Shown: positions 4,766-32,207 of the stretch, one piece after another
Numbering within the stretch: the stretch's first letter is position 1
Layout: the number at the start of each line of letters is the position of its first letter
Assembly: GCF_002934455.1 (NCBI RefSeq)
Contig: NZ_PTIR01000022.1
Coordinates: 1 to 64,000, forward strand
From: Trinickia symbiotica
GTDB taxonomy: Bacteria; Pseudomonadota; Gammaproteobacteria; Burkholderiales; Burkholderiaceae
Direction: 5' to 3'
Length of the DNA: 64,000 nt
Notes under the pieces: generated by a model
Seen by the model: the letters and a program-made list of their open reading frames with translations, nothing else
What the model was told of the DNA's origin: nothing
Database searches by the model: none
Position numbers and translations under genes: made by a program

Positions 4766-6307
4766 ATGCCGAGCCGCACGCCGACCGCTTTATGGGCCCA
4801 GCAATTTACGCGGTCATCGGCATCTAAGACGAGCCTGCAGGATCAGATCCGACAAATGCTTGTCGCCGCCATCCTCGATGGCCAATTGCAGCCCGATGTC
4901 GCGCTCCCGTCCAGCCGCGAGCTGGCCGATCAGCTCGGCGTCGCACGCAACACCGTCGTGCTCAGTTACCAAATGCTCGTCGACGAAGGTTATCTGATCT
5001 CGCGCGAACGCAGCGGGCACTTCGTCAATCCGGAGATGCTGCGCGGCTCGCCCGACCTGGGCGCGACCCGGGCCGCCGCGCGTGCCGAAGGGCAACCCAT
5101 CGCGGACGAGACGGCGGGACGGCCGCTCTGGCGGCAACGCATCGCGCACCCGCCATCGAATCAACGCAACATCGTCAAGCCCGCGAATTGGCAGCATTAT
5201 GAGTTCCCGTTCATCTACGGGCAATTCGATCAATCGCTATTTCCAACGAACGACTGGCGCGAGTGCTGCATGAAGGCGCTCTCGGTCATGGAAATTCGCA
5301 ACTGGGCGCCCGACCTCATCGAGCGCGACGACGAATCCCTGATCCAGCAGATCCGCACGCGCGTGCTGCCGCGGCGCGGCGTGTTCGCGATGCCGGATGA
5401 AATCGTCATCACAATCGGCTGTCAGCAGGCCTTGTACTTGATCGCCGATCTACTGTGCGACGAAGATACGACTGTCGGCTTCGAAAATCCGGGCTACCCC
5501 GATGCACGCAACATCTTCGAAAACCGGAATGCGCGGTTGCTGCCGCTGGAGGTGGATGAAAACGGCATCGCGCCGGAAGCACTCGACGATACGCTCGCTT
5601 GCTGCGATTACGTATATGTAACGCCGAGCCACCAATGCCCGACGACAGCGACGATGCCGCTGGAGCGGCGCCGCGCGTTGCTCGAGTGTGCCAAGAAGCA
5701 CGACTTCGTGATCGTCGAGGACGACTACGAGAGCGAAAACACCTTCTCCGGCACGCCGCATCCCGCGTTGAAAAGCCTCGATACGGCCGATCGCGTGATC
5801 TATGTCGGCAGTTTGTCGAAGACATTCGCCCCGGGCCTGCGGCTCGGCTACGTCGTCGGCCCGCGCGAGTTGATTCGCGAACTGCGCGCGCTGCGGCGAT
5901 TGATGGTGCGGCACCCGGTGGGCTACGTGCAACGCGCGTTCGCGACGTTTCTCGCACTCGGGCATCATGACGCGCTGCTGCGGCGGCTCGCGCACGCTTA
6001 TCGCGAACGCGCGCAGGCGCTCATGGCGGCGCTCGACGCGCACCTGCCGCAAGCGCGTTACGTGCCCATAACAGGCGGTGCGTCGTCATGGGTCGAGGGG
6101 CCCGCCTGGCTCGACGCGGAACGCCTTGCCGCGGATGCGCAGGCGGTCGGCGTCGTGATAGAGCCCGGCAACGTCTTCTTCATGAACGACGATGCGCAAG
6201 CACGTCGCTGCTTCCGCATGGGCTTCTCGGCCATTGCGCCCGAGAAGATCGAGCCGGGCGTGCGGGCACTTGCGCAATGCGTGCAAGCGCAGCAGCGCAT
6301 GGGTTAG
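4766..6307 (+). CDS. MocR/GntR-family PLP-domain transcriptional regulator (TauR-like)
   Basis: 513 residues. A GntR winged helix occupies about 20-90 (LPSSRELADQLGVARNTVV, then LVDEGYLISRERSGHFV), followed by a fold-type I aminotransferase-like domain to the end. The PLP-binding lysine is retained at residue 352 in SLSKTFAPGLRLGY. ATG 4766 was chosen over earlier in-frame starts because TAGGAG lies five bases upstream and homology begins just after. MocR regulators use PLP or a PLP-amino acid adduct as effector; TauR of this family controls taurine genes in Rhodobacter. The gene ends 24 bases from the convergent soeABC cluster and stands at the edge of the sulfonate island, so a TauR-like role is plausible. 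The family is certain, the target is inferred. Confidence 0.85.
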   Translation: MPSRTPTALWAQQFTRSSASKTSLQDQIRQMLVAAILDGQLQPDVALPSSRELADQLGVARNTVVLSYQMLVDEGYLISRERSGHFVNPEMLRGSPDLGATRAAARAEGQPIADETAGRPLWRQRIAHPPSNQRNIVKPANWQHYEFPFIYGQFDQSLFPTNDWRECCMKALSVMEIRNWAPDLIERDDESLIQQIRTRVLPRRGVFAMPDEIVITIGCQQALYLIADLLCDEDTTVGFENPGYPDARNIFENRNARLLPLEVDENGIAPEALDDTLACCDYVYVTPSHQCPTTATMPLERRRALLECAKKHDFVIVEDDYESENTFSGTPHPALKSLDTADRVIYVGSLSKTFAPGLRLGYVVGPRELIRELRALRRLMVRHPVGYVQRAFATFLALGHHDALLRRLAHAYRERAQALMAALDAHLPQARYVPITGGASSWVEGPAWLDAERLAADAQAVGVVIEPGNVFFMNDDAQARRCFRMGFSAIAPEKIEPGVRALAQCVQAQQRMG

Positions 6308-6331
6308 ACGAACGGCGGCCAAACGGCGCGG

Positions 6332-7279
6332 CTACGACGCGCGCTGATAGTAGATGTTCTGCGGATGCCGCGCATCGGCGAAGAAAAACCAGCGCTCGGC
6401 AAGCAGTCCCACATATTGGATCACGAACGCCGCAGCGAGCGCGACGGCCGCCGCAGCCGATCGCGGCGCCAGCGCACCCACGCCCGTAAGAACGAACGGC
6501 ACCGCGAATGCGCCGATCAAAAAACCGATCTTGACGGCCTGCAGCGTTGCGCCGCTCCTCCCGTGGAAGAATTCGCGCGTGTTGAATGCGCTCGCCGTAA
6601 AGCCCCGGGACTTCTGCTCGACCTTTACGTGGCGAATGCCGGTCGCGCTCTGCACGGTCGACTTCGGTTTGAGGCGCGCGTTGCGCGCAAGCGATGCCAA
6701 GCGTGTCGCGCAACCGGCGACCGTCAGCAAGCAAGCACACGCCGCAAGTACGCTCACGAGCGCAGGCGCAAGCCAAGACGCGCAAGCGGTCGCCAGCGTG
6801 CAGCCGGAGGCGCAGCCGAGCAACGCGAAGTTCACGAGCGTGTATGGGCTTGCCCATTCCTGCAGGAAGCGCAGGCAGGCATAAATCATGGCTGTGCAGA
6901 CGAACAGCGCGACGCTCGCAGCCGCCGCGAGTGCGCCGATTTCAAGCGTAGCGCTTATGCCGGCCCAATGCGCGGCACCGTACGCGGTGGCCAGCGCAAG
7001 AAAAACCGGCAACGCGATGCATTCGCGCGAGAGCCACGACGTACGCCACATCGCGATCGCCCGCCACGCGCGCTCGGGATGCCCGAGATGGAAGAACGAC
7101 GCGGCAAGTCCGAGCGCGCCGAGCACGACCGCCAATGCCGACCCGGACACATAGAACGCCGAAGGCACTGCAACGCCGACGGCACGGGAAGCGGCTTCGA
7201 CGGCGACAAGCGTGAGCAGCAGTCCCTGCGCCGCACCGCAAAGCGTCGTGAGAAAAATGACTGAGAAAGCTGGCCGCAT
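6332..7279 (-). CDS. soeC: Membrane anchor subunit of sulfite dehydrogenase (SoeC/DmsC type)
   Basis: 315 residues, almost entirely hydrophobic, with about eight transmembrane segments, starting RPAFSVIFLTTLCGAAQG as in DmsC-type anchors. It would hold the catalytic SoeAB dimer on the cytoplasmic face of the inner membrane and pass electrons to quinone. ATG 7279 has GGAG five bases upstream and is preferred to the TTG at 7315. It is last of the soeA-soeB-soeC order and follows soeB by 65 bases. DMSO reductase anchors are homologous, so the sulfite role rests on the untargeted SoeA partner and the sulfonate setting. Confidence 0.75.
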   Translation of the reverse strand: MRPAFSVIFLTTLCGAAQGLLLTLVAVEAASRAVGVAVPSAFYVSGSALAVVLGALGLAASFFHLGHPERAWRAIAMWRTSWLSRECIALPVFLALATAYGAAHWAGISATLEIGALAAAASVALFVCTAMIYACLRFLQEWASPYTLVNFALLGCASGCTLATACASWLAPALVSVLAACACLLTVAGCATRLASLARNARLKPKSTVQSATGIRHVKVEQKSRGFTASAFNTREFFHGRSGATLQAVKIGFLIGAFAVPFVLTGVGALAPRSAAAAVALAAAFVIQYVGLLAERWFFFADARHPQNIYYQRAS

Positions 7280-7344
7280 GGGGGCTCCGTCTATGCCAGT
7301 GTATCGATGCGTCAATGCGACGATGGCTGTCGGTTCGCGACCGC

Positions 7345-8085
7345 TTAACGGTGCGCGGCCAATGCCGCGAGATTCACTTCGCCGCGTTCGAGCTGCGCTT
7401 GGAGCGTCGCGTCATCGGGCGCAGCCGCATTCCCGCAGCCGGCGCCATTACCGCAGCCGCACGACGACTCGGCCTTCACGCGCGGCAGATAATGATTCGA
7501 AGGCTTGGTGTCCCACTCGGGCATCAGCGCATAGCCGCCGCGCTCGCGAATCGCACGCGATACCTCCGAGTCCGGGTCGTGAATATCGCCGAATAGCCGT
7601 GCCGATGTCGGACAGGCAAGCACGCACGCAGGCTTACGATCGCGTTCGGGCAACGCTTCGTTATAGATTCGGTCCGCGCAGAGCGTGCACTTCGTCATTT
7701 CCTTGCGGCCCTCGTCCAACTCCCGCGCACCATAGGGGCATGCCCACGCGCAGTATTTGCAGCCGATGCACTTGTCGTAATCGACGAGCACGATACCGTC
7801 CGACTTGCGCTTGTAGCTCGCCCCGGTTGGACAGACCGGCACGCAGGGCGGATCCTCGCAATGCAGGCACGACTTCGGGAAATGGATCGTGTCGGTCATG
7901 GGGAACACGCCGGCTTCGTACGTCTGCACGCGATTGAAGAATGTGCCCGACGGATCATCGTCATAGGGCCGCATGTCGGCGAGGCTGCCCGCCTCGCCCG
8001 ACGTGTTCCATTCCTTGCAGCTCGTCACGCATGCGTGGCAACCGACGCAGACGTTCAGATCGATGACAAGAGCCATTTGAGTCAT
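7345..8085 (-). CDS. soeB: Iron-sulfur subunit of sulfite dehydrogenase (SoeB/DmsB type)
   Basis: 246 residues. Four four-cysteine clusters are visible in order: CVGCHACVTSCKEW, CLHCEDPPCVPVCPTGA, CIGCKYCAWACPYGA, and CTLC with a distal CVLACPTSA. This predicts four [4Fe-4S] centres relaying electrons from the molybdenum subunit to the membrane anchor. The real start is ATG 8085, with GGGAG seven bases upstream; the open frame extends further only as antisense shadow. The ATG overlaps the soeA stop as ATGA, implying translational coupling. An unusual tail after the ferredoxin fold contains extra cysteines (SSCGCGNGAGCGN). There is no signal peptide, consistent with a cytoplasmic enzyme. Confidence 0.8.
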   Translation of the reverse strand: MTQMALVIDLNVCVGCHACVTSCKEWNTSGEAGSLADMRPYDDDPSGTFFNRVQTYEAGVFPMTDTIHFPKSCLHCEDPPCVPVCPTGASYKRKSDGIVLVDYDKCIGCKYCAWACPYGARELDEGRKEMTKCTLCADRIYNEALPERDRKPACVLACPTSARLFGDIHDPDSEVSRAIRERGGYALMPEWDTKPSNHYLPRVKAESSCGCGNGAGCGNAAAPDDATLQAQLERGEVNLAALAAHR

Positions 8086-11039
8086 TGTTCGTCTCCCTGA
8101 GAAGTCGCGCCGTCGTCGGCGGCAGCCCATGCCGCCGCCCGGCGCAGCCGCGCCGCGAACTCGCCTTTGCCGGCGAAATAGGCCTGCACGCGTTGAAGCA
8201 CGCTCGTCGAACCGGGCAGCGGATGCATCGGGGCGAATTGCGGCAGCGTGGTCGAGGCATCGGCCTCGGCCCGATAAATGCGCACGCGCACGTCGTACCA
8301 GCCGGCTTGCCCAGTGATCGGATCCGAGTTGGACATCCGCTCGCCGGCACGCGTATCGCTCGGCAACTCGTCGGTGATCACGTGGTTCAATAAGAAGCCG
8401 CGCTGCGACTCGCCCGCGTTCGGTCCTAGATTCCACGCGCCGGCCGCCTTGCCGATCGCATTCCAAGTCCACACCGTGCCGGGCTCCACCGCCTCGCTAT
8501 AGCGCGCGCGGCAGCGCACCTTCCCCCACGGCGATTCGACATAGATCCAGCCCCCGTCCTCGATCCCCTCTTCCGCAGCCACCGCGGGATTCACGAACAA
8601 ATGGTTCTCCCCGTGAATCTGCCGCAGCCACGCGTTTTGCGAGTCCCAGGAGTGATACATCGCCATCGGCCGTTGTGTGATCGCCGCGAGCGGAAAACGA
8701 TCGAGATCGGTCGTGTCCTGTTCCAGCGGCGGATACCAGAACGGCAGCGGATCGAAATAGCGTTCGATGCGCGCCCTGAGGTGCTCGGGCGGTTGGCGGC
8801 CTTTCGTCTTGCCTTGCGCGGCCAGGCGAAACGTCTGCATCACTTCCGAATAAAGCTGGATCACGATCGGCACTGCGTACTTGCGCATCCCGTTCTCGAC
8901 AGCCCATTCAATATACGGCCCGTTGCAGTTGCGCATGTACTGCAGCGACTCGGGCAACCGATGGTGATAGACGCAATTGTTCTTGGCGTACTGCTCCCAC
9001 TGCTTCGGATTCGGCTCGCCGACGACGGCCTTCGTGCCGTCCTCGCCGCGCCAACCGATCAGAAACCCGGTGCCCGAATCGGGCGCCGTCTGGAAGTTGA
9101 CGATGAAGTCCGGATAGTCGCGAAACTTACGTTTGCCGTCGGCCGTGATGAAAGCCGGAAACTTGAGCCGGCTCGCCAATTCGATCAGCACTTCCTGAAA
9201 CGGTTTGCATTCGCCCGTCGGCGGCACCACCGGCACCCGCACGGAATCCACCGGACCGTCGAATTCAGAGATCGGACGATCGAGCACGGACATCACGTCA
9301 TGGCGCTCCAGATACGTCGTATCGGGCAGGATCAAATCGGCGAATGCGGTCATCTCCGATTCGAATGCGTCGCAAACAACAAGGAACGGAATCTTGTATT
9401 CGCCGTCATCGCGCTTGTCGACCAGCATTTTGCGCACTTCCACCGGATTCATCGACGAATTCCACGCCATATTGGCCATGAAAATAAGCAGCGTGTCGAT
9501 CGGATACGGATCGCCGCGCCAGGCGTTGGTGATGACGGAATGCATGAGCCCATGCACCGCGAGCGGATATTCCCATGAGAACGCCTTATCGATGCGGGCC
9601 GGGGAACCGTCCTCGTGAATGAACAGATCGGTCGGCGCAGCGGGCCAGCCAAGCGGGCCGGTTGCAAGCGGCGTGTTTGGCTTGACGACGGCCGGATCGT
9701 TCGGCGGTTTCGCCGACGGCGGCGCCGCGCGCGGATACGGCGCCTTGTGACGGAAGCCGCCCGGCCGGTCGATCGTGCCGAGCAGTGACATCAGAATCGA
9801 CATCGCGCGAATCGTCTGGAAGCCGTTCGAATGCGCGGCGAGCCCACGCATCGCGTGAAATGCGATCGGCGCACCTTCCACCGTGTCGTGCGTCTTGCCC
9901 CATGAGTCAGTCCACTGAATCGGCAGCACGATCCGCTGCTCGCGCGCGACGGTGGCCATTTCGCGCGCGATACGCGCAATGGTATCCGCGGAGATGCCCG
10001 TGATCTCGGCGGCCCATTGCGGCGTGCAGTGTGCGACTTGGTCACGCAGCAGGGCAAACGACGGTGCGACCGGTGTGCCGTCGGCGAGCGCATACCTTCC
10101 ATCGAGCGCCGGCTGCGCACCTTCAGCGCGATTGAGCACTGGGCGATTCGTGCGCGCGTCCCACCACAAATGATTCTGCGGAAACAGTGCGTTGCCTTCC
10201 GGCGCGTCGGCATCGCGCACGAACAACCCAAACGTATCGGATTCCTCGCGCAGGTCGACGAGCTCGCCCGCATTCGTGAAGCGCTCGACGAATGCGCGGT
10301 CGTATGCGCCCTGCTCGATCAACTCTCGGATCAGGGCCATGAACAGCGCGCCGTCCGTGCCCGGGCGAATCGGGATCCATTCGTCCGCAATGGCCGCATA
10401 GCCGGTACGCACCGGATTGATGGCGATGAAGCGCCCGCCGGCCCGCTTGAATTTCGATAACGCGATCTTCAGCGGATTCGAATGGTGGTCTTCGGCCGTT
10501 CCGATCATGAAGAAGAGCCGCGCGTTGTCGAGATCGGGGCCGCCGAACTCCCAGAACGAGCCGCCGATCGTATAGATCATACCGGCCGCCATGTTCGCCG
10601 AACAAAAGCCTCCGTGCGCCGCATAGTTAGGGGTGCCGAATTGTTTCGCGAAGAGACCCGTCAGGGCTTGCATCTGATCGCGTCCCGTGAAGAGCGCGAA
10701 CTTCTTTGGATCGGTCGCGCGCAGGTGCCCGAGACGCTTTTCGAGCATGTCGAACGCCACCTCCCACGACACCGGGACGAACTGCGCTTCGCCACGCTCC
10801 GCATCGCGCCTGCGCAGCAGCGGCCGCGTGAGGCGCGCGGGCGAGTACTGCTTCATGATCCCCGACGAGCCCTTCGCGCAGATCACGCCCTGGTTCAACG
10901 GGTGGTCAGGGTTGCCGTCGATGTAGCGCACTTCGCCGTCGCGCAAATGCACGCGGATTCCGCAACGACATGCGCACATGTAGCAGGTCGTCGTCTTGAT
11001 CTCGAGCTTCTCGTCCTGGGTGCGCGGATGATGGTCCAT
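8082..11039 (-). CDS. soeA: Molybdopterin catalytic subunit of cytoplasmic sulfite dehydrogenase
   Basis: 985 residues of the DMSO-reductase superfamily. The N-terminus has a [4Fe-4S] motif (CYMCACRCGI, then VICAKGSSG), followed by the bis-MGD domains and a C-terminal cofactor-binding domain (about 830-960, SWDSQNAWLRQIHGENHLFV). ATG 11039 is preceded by AGGAAGG; no twin-arginine signal precedes the cluster motif, unlike periplasmic DmsA or TtrA. That matches SoeA, which oxidises sulfite to sulfate in the cytoplasm. The island also encodes Xsc, which releases sulfite, giving the enzyme an obvious substrate. Other untargeted oxidoreductases of this superfamily remain possible; the family is certain, the substrate is inferred from layout and context. 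Confidence 0.75.
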   Translation of the reverse strand: MDHHPRTQDEKLEIKTTTCYMCACRCGIRVHLRDGEVRYIDGNPDHPLNQGVICAKGSSGIMKQYSPARLTRPLLRRRDAERGEAQFVPVSWEVAFDMLEKRLGHLRATDPKKFALFTGRDQMQALTGLFAKQFGTPNYAAHGGFCSANMAAGMIYTIGGSFWEFGGPDLDNARLFFMIGTAEDHHSNPLKIALSKFKRAGGRFIAINPVRTGYAAIADEWIPIRPGTDGALFMALIRELIEQGAYDRAFVERFTNAGELVDLREESDTFGLFVRDADAPEGNALFPQNHLWWDARTNRPVLNRAEGAQPALDGRYALADGTPVAPSFALLRDQVAHCTPQWAAEITGISADTIARIAREMATVAREQRIVLPIQWTDSWGKTHDTVEGAPIAFHAMRGLAAHSNGFQTIRAMSILMSLLGTIDRPGGFRHKAPYPRAAPPSAKPPNDPAVVKPNTPLATGPLGWPAAPTDLFIHEDGSPARIDKAFSWEYPLAVHGLMHSVITNAWRGDPYPIDTLLIFMANMAWNSSMNPVEVRKMLVDKRDDGEYKIPFLVVCDAFESEMTAFADLILPDTTYLERHDVMSVLDRPISEFDGPVDSVRVPVVPPTGECKPFQEVLIELASRLKFPAFITADGKRKFRDYPDFIVNFQTAPDSGTGFLIGWRGEDGTKAVVGEPNPKQWEQYAKNNCVYHHRLPESLQYMRNCNGPYIEWAVENGMRKYAVPIVIQLYSEVMQTFRLAAQGKTKGRQPPEHLRARIERYFDPLPFWYPPLEQDTTDLDRFPLAAITQRPMAMYHSWDSQNAWLRQIHGENHLFVNPAVAAEEGIEDGGWIYVESPWGKVRCRARYSEAVEPGTVWTWNAIGKAAGAWNLGPNAGESQRGFLLNHVITDELPSDTRAGERMSNSDPITGQAGWYDVRVRIYRAEADASTTLPQFAPMHPLPGSTSVLQRVQAYFAGKGEFAARLRRAAAWAAADDGATSQGDEQ

Positions 11040-11176: not shown

Positions 11177-12595
11177 TCATGACACGAGTTCGTGCTCGTC
11201 GACGTACCGCGCGCGCTCGCGCCGGTGTACGAACACCTTGTATCCGCCCAGCAGCAGGCCTAAGCTTGCGACGCCGAGCCAAAGCGGCTTGCGCTGATCG
11301 GGAATGAATGCCATCGCGATCAGGATGCCGATCATGCCGATGATCGACAGCCAGGTCAGATACGGAAAGCCCCACATCTTGACGCGCAGCTTGCCCTCGG
11401 CCTCACGGTCGAGTCGGCCGCGCAAGCGAAGCTGCGAAAGCGCGATCAGCACATACACGAAAATGGCGACGGTGCCGTAGGAATCGACTAAAAATGCGAA
11501 TACGGTATCGGGGGAGATATACGACATCACAACCGAGACGTACCCAAACAAGGTACCTAGCAAAATTGCGCGTACGGGCACGCCGCGTTTGTTGACCGCG
11601 GCAAGCGCGGCCGGTGCGTCGCCGTTGCGCGTCAGCGCGAACAGCATCCGCGAAGCGGCATAAAGGCCCGAATTGAGCGCCGACAGCACCGCGGTCAACA
11701 CAATGGCATTCATGATGTTCGCGGCCGCGGGTAGCCCCATGACGCGAAGCGCGCTGACGTACGGCGTGGCCATGGCCGGCGAATTCCACGGCACGAGCGC
11801 GACCACGAGCGCCACCGACCCGACGTAGAACACGAGCACGCGCGTAATCACGGAGTTCGTCGCCTTCGCCACGGCCTTCGCGGGCTCGCGCGCCTCCGCC
11901 GCGGCGATGGTTACGATTTCGGCGCCGAAGTAAAAGCCTGTCGCCGCCACCGCGCCGCTCATCACGGGCCCAATCCCGAGCGGCATAAACCCGCCGTGCC
12001 CGAGGAGCGTAGGCAGTACCGCGCTCGTGTGCATGGACGCGGGCCAAAAGCCGGTCACGTAGAGGCCACCGAGGAGCAGAAAGACCATGATCGCGCCTAC
12101 CTTGATCGACGAAAACCAGAACTCGAACTCCCCATAGCTGCCCACTGAAATCAAGTTCGTCGCGGTAAGTACGATGAGGAGCACGAGGCTGATGATCCAT
12201 GCGGGCGCGTCGGGGATCCAAAACTGAATGAGCTTGGCTCCTGCAACCGCCTCGAGCGCCACTACGATCACCCAGAAATACCAGTACATCCAGCCGGTCA
12301 GAAAGCCGGCTAGCCGGCCCGGCCCGCGCCGGTTCGCAAATGCGAGTCGCGCGTATTCGTAGAAAGACCCGACGGCGGGCATTGCACACGCCATCTCCCC
12401 GAGCATCCGCATCACGAGGACGACAAGGCCGCCCGTGATCAGGAAGGAAAGGATCGCGGCGGGGCCGGTCTGCTGAATGACCACGCCGCTGCCAACGAAA
12501 AGCCCGGCACCGATCACGCCGCCGAGCGCGATCATCGTCATATGGCGCTGTTTGAGCCCACACTTGAGGTTGCTGCGGTCCATCGTAGGTTGCAT
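11177..12595 (-). CDS. APC-superfamily amino-acid permease (GabP/AAT family)
   Basis: 472 residues with twelve predicted transmembrane segments. The family signature is near the N-terminus (GGVIGAGLFVGSG) with the following SFLITGGLVVLVMRMLGEMA. Start ATG 12595 has GGAG five bases upstream. Members carry GABA, aromatic or other amino acids with protons. It lies between soeA (137 bases downstream) and the TauY-like gene (about 200 bases upstream), all on the same strand. An inference from context is uptake of taurine or a related amino-sulfonate; a conventional amino acid is equally compatible with the sequence. Confidence 0.82.
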   Translation of the reverse strand: MQPTMDRSNLKCGLKQRHMTMIALGGVIGAGLFVGSGVVIQQTGPAAILSFLITGGLVVLVMRMLGEMACAMPAVGSFYEYARLAFANRRGPGRLAGFLTGWMYWYFWVIVVALEAVAGAKLIQFWIPDAPAWIISLVLLIVLTATNLISVGSYGEFEFWFSSIKVGAIMVFLLLGGLYVTGFWPASMHTSAVLPTLLGHGGFMPLGIGPVMSGAVAATGFYFGAEIVTIAAAEAREPAKAVAKATNSVITRVLVFYVGSVALVVALVPWNSPAMATPYVSALRVMGLPAAANIMNAIVLTAVLSALNSGLYAASRMLFALTRNGDAPAALAAVNKRGVPVRAILLGTLFGYVSVVMSYISPDTVFAFLVDSYGTVAIFVYVLIALSQLRLRGRLDREAEGKLRVKMWGFPYLTWLSIIGMIGILIAMAFIPDQRKPLWLGVASLGLLLGGYKVFVHRRERARYVDEHELVS

Positions 12596-12793: not shown

Positions 12794-12801
12794 CGGCGGG
12801 C

Positions 12802-23694: not shown

Positions 23695-24692
23695 GAGCGC
23701 GGCGGCAGGTCGCCACCTGGCTCGCCGTCCATCTCCGAACCGCAAAGCTCGACGCCGAAGCAACGCTGGTAGTACTCGGCGACGATCGACCGCTCGGATT
23801 CATCGCACTTATTCAAGAACGTTAGGCGAAACGCGAGCGCCGGATCGCGAAAGATCTGGCAGTTCTCGGCCCAATTGATGACGGTGCGCGGCGACATCAG
23901 CGTGGAGAGGTCGCCCGTGGCGAAACCCTTGCGCGTCAGCGCGGCCATGCCGACCATCGATTCGACGAGCGCACGGCCCGCTTCATCGGCCATTTCAGGG
24001 ACGCGCGCCAGCACGATGCCCGCCTCTTCCTCGGGCGGCAAGTAATTGAGCGTCGCCACCACGTTCCAGCGATCCATCTGCGCGTGATTGAGCATTTGCG
24101 TGCCGTGGTAAAGGCCGTTGAGATTGCCGAGGCCCACGGTATTCGTCGTCGCGAACAATCGGAAATACCGATGGGGACGAATCACACGGTTCTGATCGAG
24201 CAACGTGAAGCTCCCATCGCGTTCCAAGATTCGCTGGATGACGAACATCACATCGGGCCGCCCCGCATCGTATTCGTCGAAGATCAGGGCAACGGGTCGC
24301 TGCAGAGCCCAGGGTACGATGCCTTCCTGGAATTCGGTCACTTGCCGGTCGTCACGTACGACGATGGCATCCTTGCCGACGAGATCGAGCCGGCTGATGT
24401 GCCCGTCGAGATTCACGCGAACGCACGGCCAGTTCAAGCGCGCGGCAACCTGCTCGATGTGCGTCGATTTGCCGGTGCCGTGCAGGCCCTGGACCATCAC
24501 GCGCCGGTTGCGTGTGAAGCCGGCGAGGATCGCGAGCGTGACTTCCTCATTGAAGCGATACGCGGGATCGATGTCGGGCACGTGATCGTCACGTTCCGCG
24601 AACGCCGGCACCTTCAGGTTCGAGTCGATGCCGAAATGCTCACGCACGGACACCATGCGATCGGGCATCTCCTTCATGAAATCCGTCGTCAC
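23691..24692 (-). CDS. cobS: CobS-like AAA+ ATPase (cobaltochelatase subunit family)
   Basis: 333 residues, the normal CobS length. Walker A is [20 protein letters not shown], Walker B region is [20 protein letters not shown], and the sensor region is [20 protein letters not shown], all very close to CobS of aerobic B12 synthesis. Start GTG 24692 is set by AGGAG seven bases upstream and by alignment with the CobS N-terminus ([24 protein letters not shown]). The frame upstream is noise. It forms a two-gene operon with the VWA partner and is divergent from the IseJ-like gene. No B12 riboswitch precedes it, unlike both cobalt transporters in this window. Confidence 0.88.
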
Positions 24693-24780
24693 ACCGCTCT
24701 CCTCTCGACCCCACGCATCATCGAATTGCCATCGGATATACGGTGAGAATTTTATCGGCCTGCGGTGGGCCGCCGGTAGC

Positions 24781-24878
24781 ACCAGTGAGCCCATTTCGAC
24801 TGGTACAGCAACCCGAATTCGAGGGATTTCCACCGCCGCTGTCCTTCACTCGTTTTGATCCGGAATCGACGGATTCCG
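24781..24878. promoter_or_regulatory. Inverted repeats between cobS-like and iseJ-like genes
   Basis: The 310-base divergent spacer contains ACCAGT (24781-24786) with ACTGGT (24799-24804), and CGGAATC (24861-24867) with GATTCCG (24872-24878). The second shares a GGAA...TTCC core with the repeat at the xsc start site, with spacing one base longer. Both are operator candidates; neither is demonstrated. Confidence 0.35.
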
Positions 24879-25002
24879 TTTCAGTTCCTCCTGTCCGCGG
24901 CGCTCGGGCTTGCGCCCGCACATGTCTTGCCCGACATTGCATCAGCAAGCAAACCGCGCCGGTGCTGCGCGGCTTGCGCTGGAACGAAAAGAGAGGCTGT
25001 TC

Positions 25003-26640
25003 ATGGATCTGGAAGTCGACTATGTGATCGTCGGCGCAGGATCGGCCGGATGCGTATTGGCCAATCGTTTGAGTGCCGATCCGCGCAATGCGGTGCTTCT
25101 GCTCGAGGCGGGGGGCCCGGACACCAATCCCTGGATTCACGTGCCCGTGGGCTACTTCAAAACCATGCACGATCCCGAACTCGATTGGTGCTATCGGACT
25201 GAACCCGACGAAAACGTCGCCGGACGTCGAATCGATTGGCCCCGCGGCAAAGTGCTCGGCGGGTCGAGCTCGCTCAACGGTCTGCTTTATGTGCGCGGCC
25301 AACGCGAGGATTACGATCGATGGGCCGAACTCGGCAATCGCGGCTGGGGTTATGCCGACGTCCTGCCATACTTCAAGAAATCGGAAGACCAGGAGCGCGG
25401 TGCGGACGCCTATCACGGTGTTGGCGGGCCGCTCAAGGTGTCCGACCTGCGGTTGCGCCGCCCGATCGCCGATCGCTTCATCGCTGCCGCGCAGGAGATC
25501 GGGATTCCCTTCAATCCCGACTACAACGGCGCCCGTCAAGAAGGCGTCGCCTGTTTTCAGCAGACGGCTCACAACGGCTTTCGCTGGAGCACCGCGAAGG
25601 GATTTTTGAAGCCAGCCCGCGCACGCCCGAACTTGCAGGTCCATACGCGTGCGCAGGTATGCCGGATCCTTTTTAGAGGCGCGACGGCCATCGGCGTCGA
25701 ATATCTGCATAACGGCGAGCGCAAGAGTGTGCACGTGCGAGCCGAGGTCATCGTTGCCGCCGGCGCGATCGGCTCGCCGCAGATTCTGCAGCTCTCGGGC
25801 ATTGGCCCCGCGAAGCTCTTGCAACGCGTGGGAGTGCCGGTGCGGGTCGAGCTGCCGGGCGTCGGACAAAATCTGCAGGATCATTTGCAAGTGAGGCTGG
25901 TGTTTCGCACGCGCGAACGCACGCTCAACGACGAGGTCAATCATCCACTGCGCAAGGCTTGGATCGCCATGCAATACGCGCTGTGGCGCACCGGCCCGCT
26001 CACGTTGGCCGCGAGCCAAGTTGTGATCTTCACGCGTTCGAGCCCCGGCGTGGATCGCCCCGACATCCAGTTCCATATGCAGCCGCTCAGTGCCGACAAG
26101 CCCGGCGAAGGCGCGCATCCGTTCTCGGCGTTCACCTCATCGGTTTGTCAGTTGCGTCCCTTCAGCCGCGGTCACGTCGAGATCTGCGCGGCCGACCCGC
26201 TGCGGTATCCCCTTATCCATGCCAATTATTTGTCCGACCAACGCGATCATCCGATCGTGATCGGGGCGATCAAGGTTGCGCGCCGCATCGCGGCCGCACC
26301 TTCGCTCGCGCCGCAGATCGTCTCGGAGTTCACGCCCGGCCCGGAGTATCAGAGCGATGCGGAACTGCTCAAGGCGGCCCGGCGATTCAGCCAGTCGATC
26401 TATCATCCGGCGGGGACCTGCAAGATGGGCCGCGATCCGCTGGCAGTCGTCGACGATCGGCTTCGCGTACACGGGGTCTCCCGGTTGCGCGTGGTCGACG
26501 CGTCGATCATGCCGGAGCTGGTGTCGGGCAATACGAATGCGCCGGTGATCATGATTGCCGAGAAAGCTTCGGACATGATCCTGGACGACCACAGACAACG
26601 AGCGGCATCCATAGTGGAGCCCGCGGAAACGCGAACCTGA
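25003..26640 (+). CDS. iseJ: GMC-family flavin dehydrogenase, candidate isethionate dehydrogenase
   Basis: 545 residues of the GMC (choline dehydrogenase-like) family: FAD motif [18 protein letters not shown] at residues 6-23, GMC signature [18 protein letters not shown], and the C-terminal active-site region HPAGTCKMG followed by [19 protein letters not shown]. No signal peptide. ATG 25003 has GAGAGG six bases upstream. IseJ, which oxidises isethionate to sulfoacetaldehyde, is a GMC dehydrogenase in Cupriavidus, and this gene is flanked by xsc/pta on one side and sau genes on the other. GMC enzymes act on many alcohols, so the substrate is inferred from neighbours. Confidence 0.65.
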
Positions 26641-26693
26641 ACCGCTGGGGCTATCGACGCGGCCCGGATCACGCGAAACGGGCCCGCGCCACA

Positions 26694-28076
26694 TCACCGC
26701 CGCCAACGGAGCGGCCGGCGCAGCGTATGCCGTTCCATCCGCACCCCAGGCATCGCATCGAGAAACGCAAGCGCACTGCCCCGCGCACCGCCCTCGCGCC
26801 GCTCGCGCTCCTCGTCGGCCTCCACAGTGCGAGCGGTGTTGATGAAGAGGGCGGCGACGATACCGAGCGCGAGCAGGCCGGCCGATACCATGAACGGCAC
26901 GTTATAGCTGCCGGTACGCTCGATCAGATAACCGAACGCGACTGGCGAGATCATCCCCGCCACGCCGAAGCCCGTATTCATCATGCCACCCGCTGTACCG
27001 GCATATTTCCCGGCGATGTCGAGCGGCAACGTCCACAAGACCGGGTTCGTGATCTCAAGGAAGAAGAACGAAGCCGTCAGCAGCCATACCGCCTCGATCG
27101 GGCTCGACACGGAAGTCATCGGCAACAGGAATGCGAGTGAGCCGCCCATGCCGACGACGAGCACGGCACAGCGTGCCAAACGCAACCGTCCTGTGATCTT
27201 GAAGATTCGATCGGACACCACGCCGCCGAGCGTGTCGCCGATGACGCCGGCGAGCAACGGCAATGCCGTGAAAAGCGCGAGTTGCTTGAGGTCGAACCCA
27301 CGCGAGTCCTTCAGATAAGACGGCAACCAAGTCAGATAAACCCAAAGCAGCCAGCCGTAACAGAAGTCGACAAAGGTGACAAGCCACATGCGGTGGATCA
27401 GCTTGCGCCACGGGGTTGCCGTTTTCCTGGCGCGCTCGCAATCCCCCGTCCGATAGCCGATCTCGGCGGTTTCCTCAGGCGTGATGCGACGATTCTGCTC
27501 AGGGGAATTCGTAAATACCAACAGATAGAGCACCGTCCATGCAAGGCTTGCAATGCCGAGCAGAATGAAGGCATCGCGCCATCCCCCGGCCACAACGACG
27601 GCCAACACCAGCGGCGGCGTCACTGCGCCGCCAAGACGTGCGAAGCTATGCGTAATGCCCTGGGCGAAGCCGCGCTCGCCAACAGGCATCCAGTAGGTGA
27701 ACGCGCGCGTAGCGGTGGGAAATGCGCCGCCCTCGCCGATACCCAGCGTAAAACGGAGCGCAACCAGCATCGCGACGCTGCCTGCGAAACCCGTTGCGAG
27801 TGTGGCCGCGCCCCAGATGAGAGAAAGGCAGGTCAACACGAGCTTCGGCCCGAACTTATCCGATAGCCAGCCGCCGATGATCTGCATCACTGCATACGGA
27901 TACGCGAATGCGGAAAAAACGAGGCCGAGTTGAACGGTCGTGAGCCCCATCTCATGACGAATCAACGGGCCGGCGACCGCGATGTTCACTCGGTCGATAT
28001 AAGAAATGAAATACATGAGACACATCACAGCCAAGATGATGTGACGCGTCTTCACACGTTGTACGCGGTGTTGCAT
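26694..28076 (-). CDS. sauU: MFS anion:cation symporter, candidate sulfoacetate transporter
   Basis: 460 residues with twelve predicted transmembrane segments, of the ACS family. Family features are MYFISYIDRVNIAVAGPLI in helix 1 and the loop 2-3 motif GGWLSDKFGPKLVL; GIGEGGAFPTATRAFTYWMP follows. ATG 28076 has GGGAG seven bases upstream. It is the last gene of a sauS-sauT-sauU operon, 80 bases after sauT, the same gene set as the sulfoacetate locus of Cupriavidus necator. The C-terminus (from about 430) is basic and cytoplasmic. The sulfoacetate substrate is inferred from the operon. Confidence 0.75.
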   Translation of the reverse strand: MQHRVQRVKTRHIILAVMCLMYFISYIDRVNIAVAGPLIRHEMGLTTVQLGLVFSAFAYPYAVMQIIGGWLSDKFGPKLVLTCLSLIWGAATLATGFAGSVAMLVALRFTLGIGEGGAFPTATRAFTYWMPVGERGFAQGITHSFARLGGAVTPPLVLAVVVAGGWRDAFILLGIASLAWTVLYLLVFTNSPEQNRRITPEETAEIGYRTGDCERARKTATPWRKLIHRMWLVTFVDFCYGWLLWVYLTWLPSYLKDSRGFDLKQLALFTALPLLAGVIGDTLGGVVSDRIFKITGRLRLARCAVLVVGMGGSLAFLLPMTSVSSPIEAVWLLTASFFFLEITNPVLWTLPLDIAGKYAGTAGGMMNTGFGVAGMISPVAFGYLIERTGSYNVPFMVSAGLLALGIVAALFINTARTVEADEERERREGGARGSALAFLDAMPGVRMERHTLRRPLRWRR

Positions 28077-28156
28077 GCTGTTGTCTCCCACTGTCTCTTT
28101 CTAGGTGATGGCGATGTCGATGACGGGCCGCGCGATTGCGGCCAGACCGGCACGCC

Positions 28157-29791
28157 TCAATCGGGCGCCGGCGCCAGCAATTTGAGCCGCTGCACCTTGC
28201 CCGATGGACCGCGCGGCAATTCGCTCACGAAGCGGAATTCCTTGGGCGTCTTATATCGGCCCAGCTCACCCAGACAGTGGGCCCGCAGCTGGTCGGCATC
28301 GGGCGCATTCGCCCCGTCCGCTTCGCGCAGCACGACAAACGCGACGATCTCTTGCCCATAGGCGGAATCGGGCACGCCGACGGCTGCGGCGTCGAGTACA
28401 CCTGGATGGCGCAGCAACGCCTCGTCGATTTCGCGCGGCGCGATGTTCTCGCCGCCCTTGATGATGAGCTCCTTCGAACGGCCGTTGATATAGAAGTAAC
28501 CGTCAGCATCGCGATAGCCGAGATCTCCTGTGCGCAGCCACCCATCAGCCGTGAACGCCTTGGCGGTTTCTTCCGGCCGCTTGTAGTAGCCGCGGGTCAC
28601 CTGCTCGCCACGTAAGACGATTTCGCCGGGTTCGTTCGCTGCGCACTCGCGGCCTTCGCGATCGATTACCTTTGCCTCGGCGCCTGAAGGAAGGCCGACG
28701 CTGCCGATGCGTCGGCGAGCCGGTTCATAAGGATTGCTGAATATCGGCGCGGCCGTCTCCGTCATCCCCATCGTCTCGATAATGCCGATGCCAAAACGGG
28801 CCTCGAACGCGCGGTGATGGTCAGCCGGGAGTGCCGCCGATGCGCTGCGGCAGAACTTGAGCGCCGACAGGTCGAGGCCGCGCGGCTCGTCTCCGTTGAG
28901 CAAGTAGGCGACGATTGTCGGAACCACGTTGATCCATGTGCATCCCAAACGCGCCGCCTCCCGCCAGAACGTGCGCGCGGAAAAGCGCGGCGTCAGCACG
29001 GCCGAGCCTGCGTGGTACAAAGGCGCGAGGATCGTCACGACCAGGCCGTTGATGTGATAAAGCGGCAGCGACGCGAGCACGCGATCGTCGGGGCCTAACC
29101 GATGCTCGGCGCTGATGTTCCGTGCGTTGGCCACCAGGTTGTGGTGGCTCAGCAGCACGCCCTTCGGCGCGCCGGTGGTGCCGGAGGTATACATCAGCAG
29201 TGCGACGTCCGTCGGAGCGGCAGCGTCGCGCCACATCGCTGACTCATCGTCGCCTGTACCGACGCGCGTCGTCTCGGGCACCGCGGAACGCGCCACTTCC
29301 AGAGTCGGCAGAGCAGGTAAGTCGACGGCATCGGGGGCCGTATGGACGAGCGCGATCTCGCGTGTCATGCCCTGCGCGCGCAACTCGGCGCACACGGCGG
29401 TGATCGCGTCGGACGTTTCGCCACAAAAAAAGATCATGCGCGTGTCCGAATGCTCGACGATATAGCGCAGTTGAGACGGCTGACACAACAGATTCAACGG
29501 ATGTGCGATGAGCCCGCTGTACATCGCGCCAAGCAAAAGCGTGGCGGTTTGAACGCCGTTGCCCATGAATACCGTGACTACATCGCCCGGCCGCAAGCCA
29601 GCGAGGCGAAACCGCGCCTCGAGCGTTTGACAGCGCTCGCGTAGCGCCGCGAAGGTCATGGCCGTATCGGCGGGTGCGCCACCTGCCCGCCCGTCGTCGC
29701 CTTCGTCCGGTGCAGCCAGCAAAAACGGTTTGTTCGGATATTGGATCGCACGTGCGTCGATCAACGCACGGACTGTCGTCGCCGCGCTCAT
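28157..29791 (-). CDS. sauT: AMP-forming acyl-CoA ligase, candidate sulfoacetate-CoA ligase
   Basis: 544 residues of the ANL adenylating family. The phosphate-binding loop is LLMYTSGTTGAPKGVLLSHH, the A5 region is IIETMGMTETAAPIF, the hinge is GWLRTGDLGYRD, and the catalytic lysine region is PRGPSGKVQRLKL near the C-terminus. It would activate sulfoacetate to sulfoacetyl-CoA with ATP and CoA. Start ATG 29791 overlaps the sauS stop as ATGA, so ligase and reductase are translationally coupled, which fits channelled use of the CoA ester. Alone it could be any small-acid ligase; the coupling to an acylating aldehyde dehydrogenase and an IclR regulator supports SauT. Confidence 0.8.
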   Translation of the reverse strand: MSAATTVRALIDARAIQYPNKPFLLAAPDEGDDGRAGGAPADTAMTFAALRERCQTLEARFRLAGLRPGDVVTVFMGNGVQTATLLLGAMYSGLIAHPLNLLCQPSQLRYIVEHSDTRMIFFCGETSDAITAVCAELRAQGMTREIALVHTAPDAVDLPALPTLEVARSAVPETTRVGTGDDESAMWRDAAAPTDVALLMYTSGTTGAPKGVLLSHHNLVANARNISAEHRLGPDDRVLASLPLYHINGLVVTILAPLYHAGSAVLTPRFSARTFWREAARLGCTWINVVPTIVAYLLNGDEPRGLDLSALKFCRSASAALPADHHRAFEARFGIGIIETMGMTETAAPIFSNPYEPARRRIGSVGLPSGAEAKVIDREGRECAANEPGEIVLRGEQVTRGYYKRPEETAKAFTADGWLRTGDLGYRDADGYFYINGRSKELIIKGGENIAPREIDEALLRHPGVLDAAAVGVPDSAYGQEIVAFVVLREADGANAPDADQLRAHCLGELGRYKTPKEFRFVSELPRGPSGKVQRLKLLAPAPD

Positions 29792-31233
29792 CGACCAACC
29801 CTCCCGAAATAGTCACCAAGCAACGCATCGACTTCCGGCATTTCCTCGGCTATCGGATACGCGACGCGCGTCACGTTCAGGTAATGATGGAAATCGAGGT
29901 TTCCCGAGAAATTGTTGCGGCCCCAGGTGCCGCAGCCCATCGACAAAGAGAATGGCAAGCCGTTATCGAAGTTGCCGCCCGTCGCGAGACAATGCGCCTG
30001 ATTGACGATCACCCGCGCAACGGGGAGCCGCTCGCCCAATTCGACTGCGAAGTCCGTACGTGCGGTATGCAGCCCGACCGAATGGCCCGCCCCCATGTAC
30101 GCGTAGATACGGCGAATCACGTCTGCAGCGTCGGCGAAGTCACGGGCGCGATAGACCGTCAGCACAGGGGACAGCTTTTCGCCCGAGAACGGGTAGTCGG
30201 CCCCGAAGCCGGTCTCTTCCACCATGAGGAATCGCGGGCCCTGCCCTGCGACTTCTTCGAGACCGGCCGCTTGCGCAATTTGCGCTGCCGATTTTGCGGT
30301 GCAGTGCTCGGACAGTTTGCCGCCGCTCCACATCACAGCTTGCAGCTGCACCTTTTGGGCCGGATCAAGCAACGCGCCTCCGCAGCTGCGCAACTGCGAC
30401 AGCATCTCGTCATACACGGCGTCCTCGATGACGACGCTATTTTCGGACGAACAGCTCGTTGCATTGTCGAACGCCTTGGATAACGCAATCTTTTGCGCAG
30501 CGTCGTGCAAATCCGCTGACCGTTCGACGATCGACGCGACGTTGCCGGCGCCCACGCCGAAGGCGGGCGTGCCGCTCGCATAGGCCATGCGCACGTTCGA
30601 TTGCGAGCCGGTCGCGACGACGAGGTCGGCCTGCTGCATCAGCGCGCCCGTTGCAGCCTTGCTGATGGGTGCAGGCAAGCACTGCACGAGCGCCGGATCG
30701 AGTCCGGCCTTCGCGAACTCGGCGTGAATAAAGCTGATCAGCAACTCGCATGAGGAATGGCCCTTCGGCGAAGGGGCGACGATGACCGCATTGCCGCACT
30801 TGAGCGCGTTGATGATCTTGTTCGCGGGCGTGGCGGCCGGATTCGTGGACGGCGTCACCGCGGCGACGACGCCGACGGCGCGCGCGATCTCGATGATGCC
30901 CTTCGCGGGATCGCTGGCAATGACGCCACAGGTTTTCTGCCCCTTCAGATCGCGCAGCAGCCCAAGCGTCTTGCGCCAGTTCTTGCGGAACTTGTCGTCG
31001 ACGTTGCCAAGACCCGTATCGCGCACTGACAATTCAGCAAGCTGGCGATTGCGGGAGGGCTCCATAATCGCCCATGCGGCGGCGGCCGCTGCCGTATCGA
31101 GCGCAACCTGGCCCGCGAACTCGAACGCGCGCTGCGCCTCGCGTGCGCGCGCAACTAGCGCGGCGACACGCTGCCCCACTGCCTCGTCCGCTGGCGCCTT
31201 AGCGGTTTCGGCTACTGTAGCCCTCACATTCAT
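29788..31233 (-). CDS. sauS: CoA-acylating aldehyde dehydrogenase, candidate sulfoacetaldehyde dehydrogenase
   Basis: 481 residues of the acylating aldehyde dehydrogenase family (related to EutE and the AdhE aldehyde domain). The catalytic cysteine is Cys261 in FDNATSCSSENSVV; NAD-binding region GVVAAVTPSTNPAATPANK lies upstream. Here it would reduce sulfoacetyl-CoA to sulfoacetaldehyde, feeding Xsc. ATG 31233 has GGAG about nine bases upstream; the frame runs open to 31503, but that part overlaps the divergent regulator and is not coding. First gene of the sauSTU operon, divergent from sauR across about 210 bases containing two strong palindromes. Confidence 0.82.
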   Translation of the reverse strand: MNVRATVAETAKAPADEAVGQRVAALVARAREAQRAFEFAGQVALDTAAAAAAWAIMEPSRNRQLAELSVRDTGLGNVDDKFRKNWRKTLGLLRDLKGQKTCGVIASDPAKGIIEIARAVGVVAAVTPSTNPAATPANKIINALKCGNAVIVAPSPKGHSSCELLISFIHAEFAKAGLDPALVQCLPAPISKAATGALMQQADLVVATGSQSNVRMAYASGTPAFGVGAGNVASIVERSADLHDAAQKIALSKAFDNATSCSSENSVVIEDAVYDEMLSQLRSCGGALLDPAQKVQLQAVMWSGGKLSEHCTAKSAAQIAQAAGLEEVAGQGPRFLMVEETGFGADYPFSGEKLSPVLTVYRARDFADAADVIRRIYAYMGAGHSVGLHTARTDFAVELGERLPVARVIVNQAHCLATGGNFDNGLPFSLSMGCGTWGRNNFSGNLDFHHYLNVTRVAYPIAEEMPEVDALLGDYFGRVGR

Positions 31234-31255
31234 ACTCGGCACTCCGATGGAATAA

Positions 31256-31273
31256 ATTGGCGGTATTGCCAAT
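31256..31273 (-). promoter_or_regulatory. Inverted repeat just upstream of sauS
   Basis: ATTGGC (31256-31261) and GCCAAT (31268-31273) form a perfect six-base inverted repeat with a six-base spacer, 22 bases ahead of the sauS start codon. It overlaps the expected leader or transcription start and could be an operator. No partner protein can be named from sequence. Confidence 0.4.
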
Positions 31274-31353
31274 CTATTCGTCGTCGGTCCGCTTCGAGTC
31301 CCGTTTCCCGAGTATTTGTCGACGGCGCTGAGCCTCGCACCGAAAAGTGCAAA

Positions 31354-31380
31354 TTTCGGGACTTCCCCGGGGTCCCGAAA
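31354..31380. promoter_or_regulatory. Strong palindrome in the sauS-sauR spacer, likely SauR operator
   Basis: TTTCGGGAC (31354-31362) and GTCCCGAAA (31372-31380) are perfect nine-base arms around a nine-base GC-rich spacer. The element is about midway between the divergent genes, where an IclR regulator would control its own gene and the operon together. It is the longest perfect inverted repeat seen in the island. The role is inferred from position and symmetry. Confidence 0.55.
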
Positions 31381-31442
31381 ACCGCGAATTGCGATACACA
31401 ATGCAGCTAGCGGCGGCATCACTAGGATGAAGAGGGGAGACG

Positions 31443-32207
31443 ATGTCGACATCCAACCAATCGAACGCGGCAGCAGTGCGCGCGTTTCGCGTGCTCGAAA
31501 CATTGGCGGCGGCAGGCGGCCCGCTCTCCATGACGGACCTCGTCGATACCCTCGGGTTGCCCAAGCAAACCGTCCATCGCATCCTCACTCAACTGACCGA
31601 CGCGTGGCTCGTCACGCGCGGTGCCAGCGACAAGCGTTATGAATGCTCGCCGCGGGTGCGCATGCTCGCCGTCAACGTACTGATGCACGCGGGCCCGGCC
31701 GCGGCGCGTCACGTACTGCTCGAGCAGTTGGTCGCGAAAGTAGGAGAAACCTGCAACTTGACGATGTTGTCGGGGAACGACGTCGTGTATGTGGACCGCG
31801 TAGAGACGGAATGGCCGCTGCGCATGCATCTGCAGCCGGGATCGCACGTGCCGCTCCATTGCTCGGCCAGCGGCAAGCTATTGATCAGCTTCCTGCCGAA
31901 AGACCGGCGAGAGCGGATGATCGATACGCTCCCGCTGCGGGCCTATTCGGAACGAACCATCACCGACCGCGACGCGCTTCGAAAAGAGTTGGCCGTGACA
32001 CGGCGACGCCGGCTCGCGATCAACAACCAGGAGCACCTGCAGGGCCTGATTGCGATTGCGGTGCCGGTGATGCTCGACCGCCATCGGGCCTGCGCAGCCA
32101 TCGCGGTGCAGGCACCGGTGGGACGAGTCACGTTGGACGATCTCCTCGCGTTCGAGCCGGATCTCCGGCGCACGGCCGATGAAACCGCCAAGACTTTCCT
32201 CACATGA
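31443..32207 (+). CDS. sauR: IclR-family regulator, candidate SauR
   Basis: 254 residues. The N-terminal winged helix (about 8-70) contains MTDLVDTLGLPKQTVHRILT, followed by the effector domain with GETCNLTMLSGNDVVYVDRV and PLHCSASGKLLIS. ATG 31443 has AGGGGAG five bases upstream. It is divergent from sauSTU, the arrangement expected of the dedicated sulfoacetate regulator, and its effector domain resembles that of the IclR protein at 14499. Whether it activates or represses is not visible. Confidence 0.75.
   Translation: MSTSNQSNAAAVRAFRVLETLAAAGGPLSMTDLVDTLGLPKQTVHRILTQLTDAWLVTRGASDKRYECSPRVRMLAVNVLMHAGPAAARHVLLEQLVAKVGETCNLTMLSGNDVVYVDRVETEWPLRMHLQPGSHVPLHCSASGKLLISFLPKDRRERMIDTLPLRAYSERTITDRDALRKELAVTRRRRLAINNQEHLQGLIAIAVPVMLDRHRACAAIAVQAPVGRVTLDDLLAFEPDLRRTADETAKTFLT

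Follow-up and report, generated by a model that had tools for sequence, protein, structure and literature searches.

In text passages on CbbQO, the AAA+ protein is described as the motor and the protein with a von Willebrand factor A (VWA) domain as the subunit that binds rubisco (PMC4660213). Similarly, passages on NorQD describe a VWA protein inserted as a plug in the ring; the client enzyme becomes active only if ATP is hydrolyzed and the VWA domain is intact (PMC9976466). Both systems share a MoxR-type AAA+ motor and a VWA adaptor that together remodel or mature one enzyme. Cobaltochelatase CobST (9uka, 9ujv) joins an AAA+ subunit with a CobS N-terminal domain to a subunit built of a helical domain, a linker, and a VWA domain. 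In this study, we analyzed a 64,000-nucleotide stretch of Trinickia symbiotica DNA (the window; contig C22 of a 6.7-Mb genome, labeled G000), in which a sulfonate-degradation island at positions 4766–32207 carries a CobS/CobT-like gene pair (21955–24677) between pta and a gene for a GMC dehydrogenase, close to xsc, the gene of sulfoacetaldehyde acetyltransferase (Xsc). Isethionate and sulfoacetate are desulfonated at the Xsc step. For taurine, the same role of Xsc is stated in passages on TauR regulons (PMC5320631). The nearest relatives of this Xsc are found in Burkholderiaceae. We strongly infer a partnership of the pair with Xsc, and we consider it reasonably probable that the pair is a MoxR-AAA+/VWA machine dedicated to one client, most likely the Xsc of this lineage, and that it matures or reactivates this thiamine diphosphate (ThDP) enzyme. 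In this analysis, the reading is supported by linkage, co-occurrence, separation from the presumed true CobS proteins, intact motor and metal-ion-dependent adhesion site (MIDAS) motifs, and the presence of another chelatase set in the genome.

The CobT-like VWA protein (21955–23697, minus strand; PF06213 and PF11775) carries the MIDAS letters DCSAS, and in its predicted structure (mean pLDDT 80.4, pTM 0.55), a linker modeled with low confidence joins a helical domain to the VWA domain. The CobS-like MoxR-type AAA+ ATPase (23691–24677, minus strand) contains PF12556 and PF07728. Both proteins are of an Xsc-associated type. The nearest solved structures are CobS 9ujv (E 1.9e-144) and CobT 9uka (E 1.6e-70), with CbbQ much more distant. 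The pair stands on the CobST side of the superfamily, in a sequence family other than those of CbbQO and NorQD. As in other MoxR-AAA+/VWA pairs, an ATPase with Walker A/B motifs and a VWA protein with a MIDAS are encoded by neighboring genes on one strand.

Linkage was counted in 80 named xsc loci, which are the closest of 590 and hence biased to close Xsc, and genes within about 10 kb of xsc were taken as near. CobS stands near xsc in 66 of the 80 loci and pta in 65; among the 56 loci with full flanks, the numbers are 50 and 51, respectively. The 66 linked loci cover 24 of 27 named genera, 12 of 13 named families (including Vibrionaceae, Shewanellaceae, Halomonadaceae, Nocardiaceae, and Pseudonocardiaceae), and two phyla. 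In all 66, the two pair genes lie on one strand, with a median gap of 66 bp between the matched stretches. For the 14 loci with no CobS nearby, 12 genomes hold a CobS elsewhere at 77–87% identity, and the other 2 gave no CobS at E ≤ 1e-20. Two named loci (L066 and L067) share one contig. Moreover, the named loci overlap the genome samples described below (L031 is G088, of the window's genus, and L098 is G646; the overlap check used one short stretch per locus, and more overlaps are likely), and counts across samples are not additive.

Co-occurrence points in the same direction. Among 398 Burkholderiaceae genomes (Xsc at E ≤ 1e-150, CobS at E ≤ 1e-60; contingency compared by hand from two tables), Xsc was found in 153 and CobS in 155, with both in 148, Xsc only in 5, CobS only in 7, and neither in 238 (Fisher p 4e-93, uncorrected for kinship). 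Four of the five genomes with Xsc only hold a diverged Xsc (clade A′, 73–74% identity), while the fifth, G149, has an Xsc at 90%. The pair is therefore present in 148 of 149 Xsc genomes outside A′ and in none of the four inside, where G004, G252, and G325 were placed outside A′ by an E-value printed as 0, their identities lying outside the matches listed, and G389 by two Xsc fragments at 89–90%. One A′ genome (G017) has a CobS relative at 34% elsewhere. The CobS-only genomes number seven: in three, a contig breaks off within xsc fragments, and in two more, the contig ends beside the pair, on the side expected for xsc; of the remaining two, one is 78% complete, and the other, G306, has decayed xsc, cobST, sau, and GMC genes. 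In the small G306 genome (locus L148), xsc, cobS, cobT, sauS/T/U, and the GMC gene are broken or partial, and these modules seem to decay together.

Beyond the family, the contrast between close and remote Xsc is sharp. In the phylum sample (398 genomes, Xsc at E ≤ 1e-120), Xsc occurs in 26 genomes with a bimodal distribution: 7 close (≥81% identity) and 19 remote (45–48%). In all seven close-Xsc genomes, xsc and CobS share a contig, at a distance of less than 5 kb in five and of about 22 and 29 kb in the other two; all 19 remote-Xsc genomes also have CobS, about 118 kb or farther from xsc or on another contig. In the class sample (303 genomes, CobS at E ≤ 1e-80, Xsc at E ≤ 1e-120), five of the seven genomes with close Xsc, our own included, carry the pair, linked in G000, G479, and G929 and unlinked in G838 and G1046; three A′ genomes lack it, and seven remote-Xsc genomes lack a linked pair. 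Taken together, 0 of 25 remote-Xsc loci (18 from 17 phylum-sample genomes and 7 from the class sample, several on short contigs, some of 7–14 kb; G710 and G775, 2 of the 19, stand outside this count) have a linked pair. Similarly, seven plasmid records match CobT along 80% or more of the query; all seven belong to the 10 with close Xsc, and none of the 145 remote-Xsc records has such a match; 13 further records have partial CobT matches. A separate Xsc clade at 67–74% identity (L143–L146, L161–L163) has neither a CobST-like pair nor a close pta in the stretches read. Two xsc copies occur in one locus or genome in L071 and L083 and in G091, G249, G290, G315, G331, and G374.

The association is also visible in the trees and motifs. 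The window's Xsc belongs to group A. A FastTree phylogeny of 132 Xsc rows places every one of the 80 pair-linked rows in a single group-A subclade (96 rows, local support 95), with A′, G833/G966, G838, and G1046 branching outside this subclade. Walker A/B motifs are present in 78 of 78 CobS rows from xsc loci. Of the 84 CobT rows from xsc loci, 83 have the MIDAS letters DCS[GA]S, and of the 18 unlinked rows, 16 have DNSGS; the two unlinked exceptions (L185 from G1046 and L187 from G838) come from genomes with close Xsc, and their unlinked pairs are of the DCSGS type. Among the five class-sample genomes with CobS and without Xsc, the first DxSxS of CobT is other than DCSGS in all except G837. 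In the CobS tree (97 rows; a quick tree with long branches, its inner order unsure), 17 of the 19 unlinked rows group together in a clade (SH-aLRT 100) from which xsc-locus rows are absent. These 17 are presumed to be true cobaltochelatases, CobN having been searched among them only in G000.

Several observations weigh against this reading, beginning with that narrow CobN search. Group-A Xsc occurs with no pair in G149 (2 contigs, 99% complete), in G833 and G966 (one genus), in a Sulfuritalea metagenome-assembled genome, and in a fragmented Burkholderia; three of these lie within the linked Xsc subclade, namely L147 (G149), L106 (Sulfuritalea), and L033 (Burkholderia), the last with a sister, L034, that has the pair. 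Three plasmids of the Rhodococcus DK17 type with close Xsc have no pair on the plasmid, the search having covered plasmids only and not chromosomes. An Xsc sequence signature of dependence was tried and rejected: 18 sites separate the Xsc of pair-carrying genomes from A′, but pair-less Xsc outside A′ matches the pair-carrying type at most of them. Moreover, G837 has a DCSGS-type CobT without Xsc, the G838 pair shares an operon with pta and is distant from xsc, and the linked pair of G929 has DNSGS. The CobS-like protein misses the curated model TIGR01650 only narrowly (539 bits, cut-off 558.55), and the MocR-type regulator at the start of the island, a TauR candidate, exceeds the curated cut-off of the PdxR equivalog (NF052282, 359 vs 320). 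Finally, the box TAGNRCCAGT, described below, precedes cobS in only three of the 66 named loci (0.6 expected), including one from the window's genus, and is unenriched before close xsc (2 of 80, 0.7 expected). Since so few cobS upstreams carry the box, its wiring at cobS is local; within the window's genus, a taurine-type operator box preceding cobS was counted in favor of the partnership.

By analogy with CbbQO and NorQD, the pair would open Xsc. The CobS-like ring would supply ATP-driven force, and the CobT-like VWA protein would dock the client, so that the two together may mature or reactivate Xsc, for example, by opening the enzyme to load or replace ThDP/Mg. In contrast to the CbbQO and NorQD systems, the proposed client is a ThDP enzyme; among solved structures, no Xsc was found at E ≤ 1e-60, except BbmA. 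Speculatively, sulfite set free by Xsc might attack or trap the ThDP, and this might be the damage that is repaired; metabisulfite degrades thiamine in solution, according to passages of PMC11206890. A more specific version, that the pair is an Xsc reactivase that swaps a sulfite-cleaved or trapped cofactor, as a thiamine-enzyme counterpart of rubisco activase, with thiG near xsc serving the same need, is put forward only tentatively and at low probability. Five of the 80 named loci have the thiazole synthase gene thiG close to xsc: three from Azoarcus and Aromatoleum, where it separates xsc from tauX, and two from Janthinobacterium, where it is nearby. It also occurs in a Rhodococcus plasmid xsc locus lacking the pair (L093 13307–14128, L069 13237–13983, L072 13321–14094, L075 7862–8671, L100 7873–8619, and L215 3112–3888; three of the six Pfam-checked). 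Moreover, passages of PMC5320631 list thiG in actinobacterial TauR regulons. The position of thiG fits heavy cofactor use and proves nothing.

That the pair is an ordinary vitamin B12 cobaltochelatase CobST, standing beside xsc by chance, is suggested by its strong similarity to the solved CobS and CobT, by the narrow miss of the CobS cut-off, and by the public annotation of Caballeronia NK8, in which the CobT-like gene is labeled 'cobalt chelatase'. However, the CobT-like protein reaches 277 bits with TIGR01651, far under the cut-off of 759, and CobN is absent from 13 of 18 pair-carrying genomes chosen for diversity. The T. symbiotica genome has a separate chelatase set on contig C34, where cobW is followed by cobN, a ChlI-type gene, and a VWA gene. 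The pair is also linked to xsc across 12 families, stands outside the clade of unlinked CobS, and has different MIDAS letters, and we regard this explanation as extremely improbable. A cob gene cluster as the reason for cobST was also considered and set aside: the genes past the island are GGDEF, phosphatase, and CbtA genes, followed by cellulose synthase and kdp. The CbtA-type cobalt transporter gene (34859–35692) lies just past the island, and its surroundings showed no cobalamin genes. On another contig of the genome, C3 (L139, 7226–10361) holds a second CobS/CobT-like AAA+/VWA pair, its CobS 32% identical, which clusters with a dehydrogenase, an MFS transporter, and, by translation, a four-carbon-acid kinase-like gene, and is possibly another enzyme-specific pair.

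A different client within the pathway (Pta, TauXY, SoeABC, or the GMC enzyme) would account for the fact that Pta is linked as often as CobS (65 vs 66 of 80) and that the G838 pair stands in a pta operon; SoeA, moreover, is a metalloenzyme, and NorQD-type MoxR/VWA pairs mature metalloenzymes (passages of PMC9976466). In contrast, SoeA is near xsc in only 4 of 80 loci, too rare beside the pair to be its client, and DAO and GMC genes in 41 and 24, respectively, against 66 for CobS. Twelve CobS-linked named loci have no Pta match within the locus, and in Amycolatopsis and G838, the Pta is of another lineage, although a group A Xsc and the pair are present. Because Pta tracks the pair less well and SoeA, DAO, and GMC genes are rarer near xsc, Xsc is the likeliest client, and a client other than Xsc seems unlikely. 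We also weighed a chaperone with a more general role in stress or sulfite protection, kept beside xsc since sulfite is released there, which would agree with the sensitivity of thiamine to metabisulfite in solution (PMC11206890, in part) and with the Xsc genomes that manage without the pair. However, the pair is tied to one Xsc subclade and is linked in none of the 25 remote loci, whose Xsc should free the same sulfite; thus, such a chaperone appears improbable. Collectively, Xsc remains the client that we infer for the pair. Among openly licensed papers, no paper linking a CobST-like pair to Xsc was found, and prior notice elsewhere is possible.

The genes around the pair form a conserved dissimilation island for C2 sulfonates. 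All genes named in a first-pass annotation of the window are present (xsc, pta, sauS, the ligase, MFS, IclR, GMC, DAO, and NTF2-like genes, the importer, and the molybdoenzyme trio); inside the island, that annotation had passed over the cobT-cobS-like pair, a GabP-like permease, and a second IclR regulator. The island begins with the MocR-type (GntR/aminotransferase) regulator (4766–6307, plus strand; PF00392 and PF00155), for which the name TauR comes from context only. The untargeted molybdoenzyme trio was confirmed at 6332–11039 (minus strand) and comprises a SoeC-like membrane anchor of the DmsC family (6332–7279; PF04976, no match in the NCBIfam search), a SoeB-like 4Fe-4S subunit (7345–8085; PF13247 and others, all NCBIfam matches listed under cut-off), and a SoeA-like molybdopterin subunit (8082–11039; PF00384/PF04879/PF01568), whose start was examined and has no twin-arginine signal and whose nearest solved structure is Thermus 2vpw (E 6.5e-41). 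This combination of a molybdenum subunit, a 4Fe-4S subunit, and a DmsC-type anchor, with no Tat signal, is the SoeABC architecture. Next are the GabP-like amino acid permease (11177–12595, minus strand; TIGR01773 535 bits, under the cut-off of 678), a DAO flavoprotein as TauY candidate (12802–14217, minus strand; PF01266), and the internal IclR-family regulator (14499–15311, plus strand; PF01614). The importer consists of a TauB-like ABC ATPase (15386–16123; PRK11248 best, 251 bits, under the cut-off of 357), a TauA/SsuA-like binding protein (16166–17185; TIGR01728 148 bits, under 163.5), and a TauC-like permease (17211–17972; PRK10160 best, 219 bits, under 342), all on the minus strand.

A SnoaL/NTF2-like protein (18392–18796, plus strand; PF12680) is the TauX candidate; TauX itself we take to be a SnoaL-like protein. 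Although other genes separate the SnoaL gene from the DAO gene in the window, the two are adjacent on one strand in 39 of the 41 named xsc loci having both, which supports the TauXY assignment. Downstream on the plus strand are xsc (18949–20766; TIGR03457 1076 bits, cut-off 676; group A by the tree) and pta, encoding phosphate acetyltransferase (20869–21912; PF01515; TIGR00651 346, cut-off 311). Beyond the cobT-cobS-like pair, the GMC dehydrogenase, an IseJ candidate (24997–26640, plus strand; PF00732/PF05199), scores high enough to pass PRK02106, a subfamily model for choline dehydrogenase (615 vs 605), but not betA (525 vs 732); in Caballeronia NK8, iclR-GMC-MFS stands after xsc-pta. The sau genes complete the island: a candidate SauU transporter of the MFS (26694–28076, minus strand; PF07690), a candidate SauT AMP-forming acyl-CoA ligase (28157–29791, minus strand; PF00501) overlapping sauS by 4 bp, the acylating sulfoacetaldehyde dehydrogenase gene sauS itself (29788–31233, minus strand; NF047625 792 bits, cut-off 600), and a candidate SauR regulator of the IclR family (31443–32207, plus strand; PF01614), divergent from sauS. 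An IclR gene thus diverges from a dehydrogenase-ligase-MFS series (31233 to 26694), which is the SauRSTU layout.

Three entry routes, a common trunk, and a sulfite-removing step had been read into this one locus. TauXY, the IseJ-like GMC dehydrogenase, and SauTS would each yield sulfoacetaldehyde, which Xsc would cleave to acetyl phosphate and sulfite; Pta would then form acetyl-CoA, and the SoeABC-like trio would oxidize the released sulfite. The scheme is plausible throughout, but firm only at Xsc and SauS, the only two proteins that pass curated equivalog cut-offs for their named function. TauXY, TauABC, SauRTU, the IseJ-like GMC enzyme, SoeABC, and the remaining proteins, Pta included, are placed by family and context, and the enzymes among them have putative substrates.

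The comparison of related genomes shows that the island is a conserved unit. The order MocR-soeCBA-(gabP)-DAO-IclR-tauBAC-tauX-xsc-pta-cobT-cobS-GMC-sauUTS-sauR is kept in all eight same-genus genomes with xsc, so the island is not a chance assembly; MocR is the first gene in all eight, a GabP match is absent in two, and two have an extra IclR-like match after MocR. At least two same-genus genomes, among the matches listed, have no xsc. G051, of another genus, has the same order minus soe, while G361 and G085 combine tau, xsc, cobST, and soe genes in different orders, and matches to sauS, sauT, and sauU are absent from the stretches read. The suggestion of novelty did not survive. The modules had been described as usually separate; however, in passages of PMC5320631, TauR regulons combine tauABC, tauXY, xsc, and pta with BisC, DmsC, and HybA in some Rhodobacterales, and GabP belongs to TauR regulons in Burkholderia. 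In addition, soeA is near xsc in 11 of the 25 remote loci. The island shares with these regulons the tau, xsc, and pta genes, the BisC/HybA/DmsC subunits, GabP, and a MocR regulator; it differs in having a sau/ise module and cobST, which are unnamed in those passages, and its molybdoenzyme trio is read here as a sulfite oxidizer, whereas the regulon study reads the molybdoenzyme as the electron acceptor of TauXY (PMC5320631, in part). Thus, the joining of taurine use to a SoeABC-like molybdoenzyme is already known, and the added sau and GMC modules are a regional variant. The sau genes can be set beside another described cluster. In Cupriavidus necator H16, SauRSTU reportedly comprises an IclR regulator, an acylating dehydrogenase, an AMP ligase, and an MFS transporter, as a sulfoacetate study in JBC in 2010 is said to have described. 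The island has the same four gene types, with a SauS that passes its equivalog model, but joins them with taurine, isethionate-type, and soe genes.

Three boxes were found between divergent genes: GGTAGAACCAGT (14322–14333, plus strand) between the DAO and IclR genes, the first of two CCAGT boxes 23 bp apart; GGTAGCGCCAGT (18286–18297, minus strand) between tauC and tauX-xsc; and GGTAGCACCAGT (24775–24786, plus strand) between cobS and the GMC gene. Their common pattern GGTAGNRCCAGT matches the window at these three sites and had 0 matches in 100 shuffles; the pattern was derived from the same sites, which makes the shuffle value an unfair test and other loci the fair check. There, TAGNRCCAGT precedes tauX in 11 of the 45 named loci (0.4 expected) and in all three A′ loci. 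Among the 25 remote loci, five have it before xsc (0.2 expected), two of these with a direct repeat at 23 bp; before soeA and pta, it is unenriched. The box thus looks like a taurine operator other than the published TauR consensus CTGGACYTAA, which has one match in the window against 1.78 expected (spaced half-site, 52 vs 50) and is not enriched; instead of that consensus near the targets, three promoters share the other box. A palindrome before the GMC gene, CGGAATC-N3-GGATTCCG, was rejected, with no exact match in 216 loci.

Collectively, the conserved CobST-like partner of Xsc is the part that deserves attention. If one large Xsc lineage needs an ATP-driven partner, the 'cobalt chelatase' genes beside xsc, such as that of Caballeronia NK8, are misnamed, and recombinant Xsc of this lineage may miss a component. 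Furthermore, the MoxR/VWA family would gain a ThDP-enzyme client.

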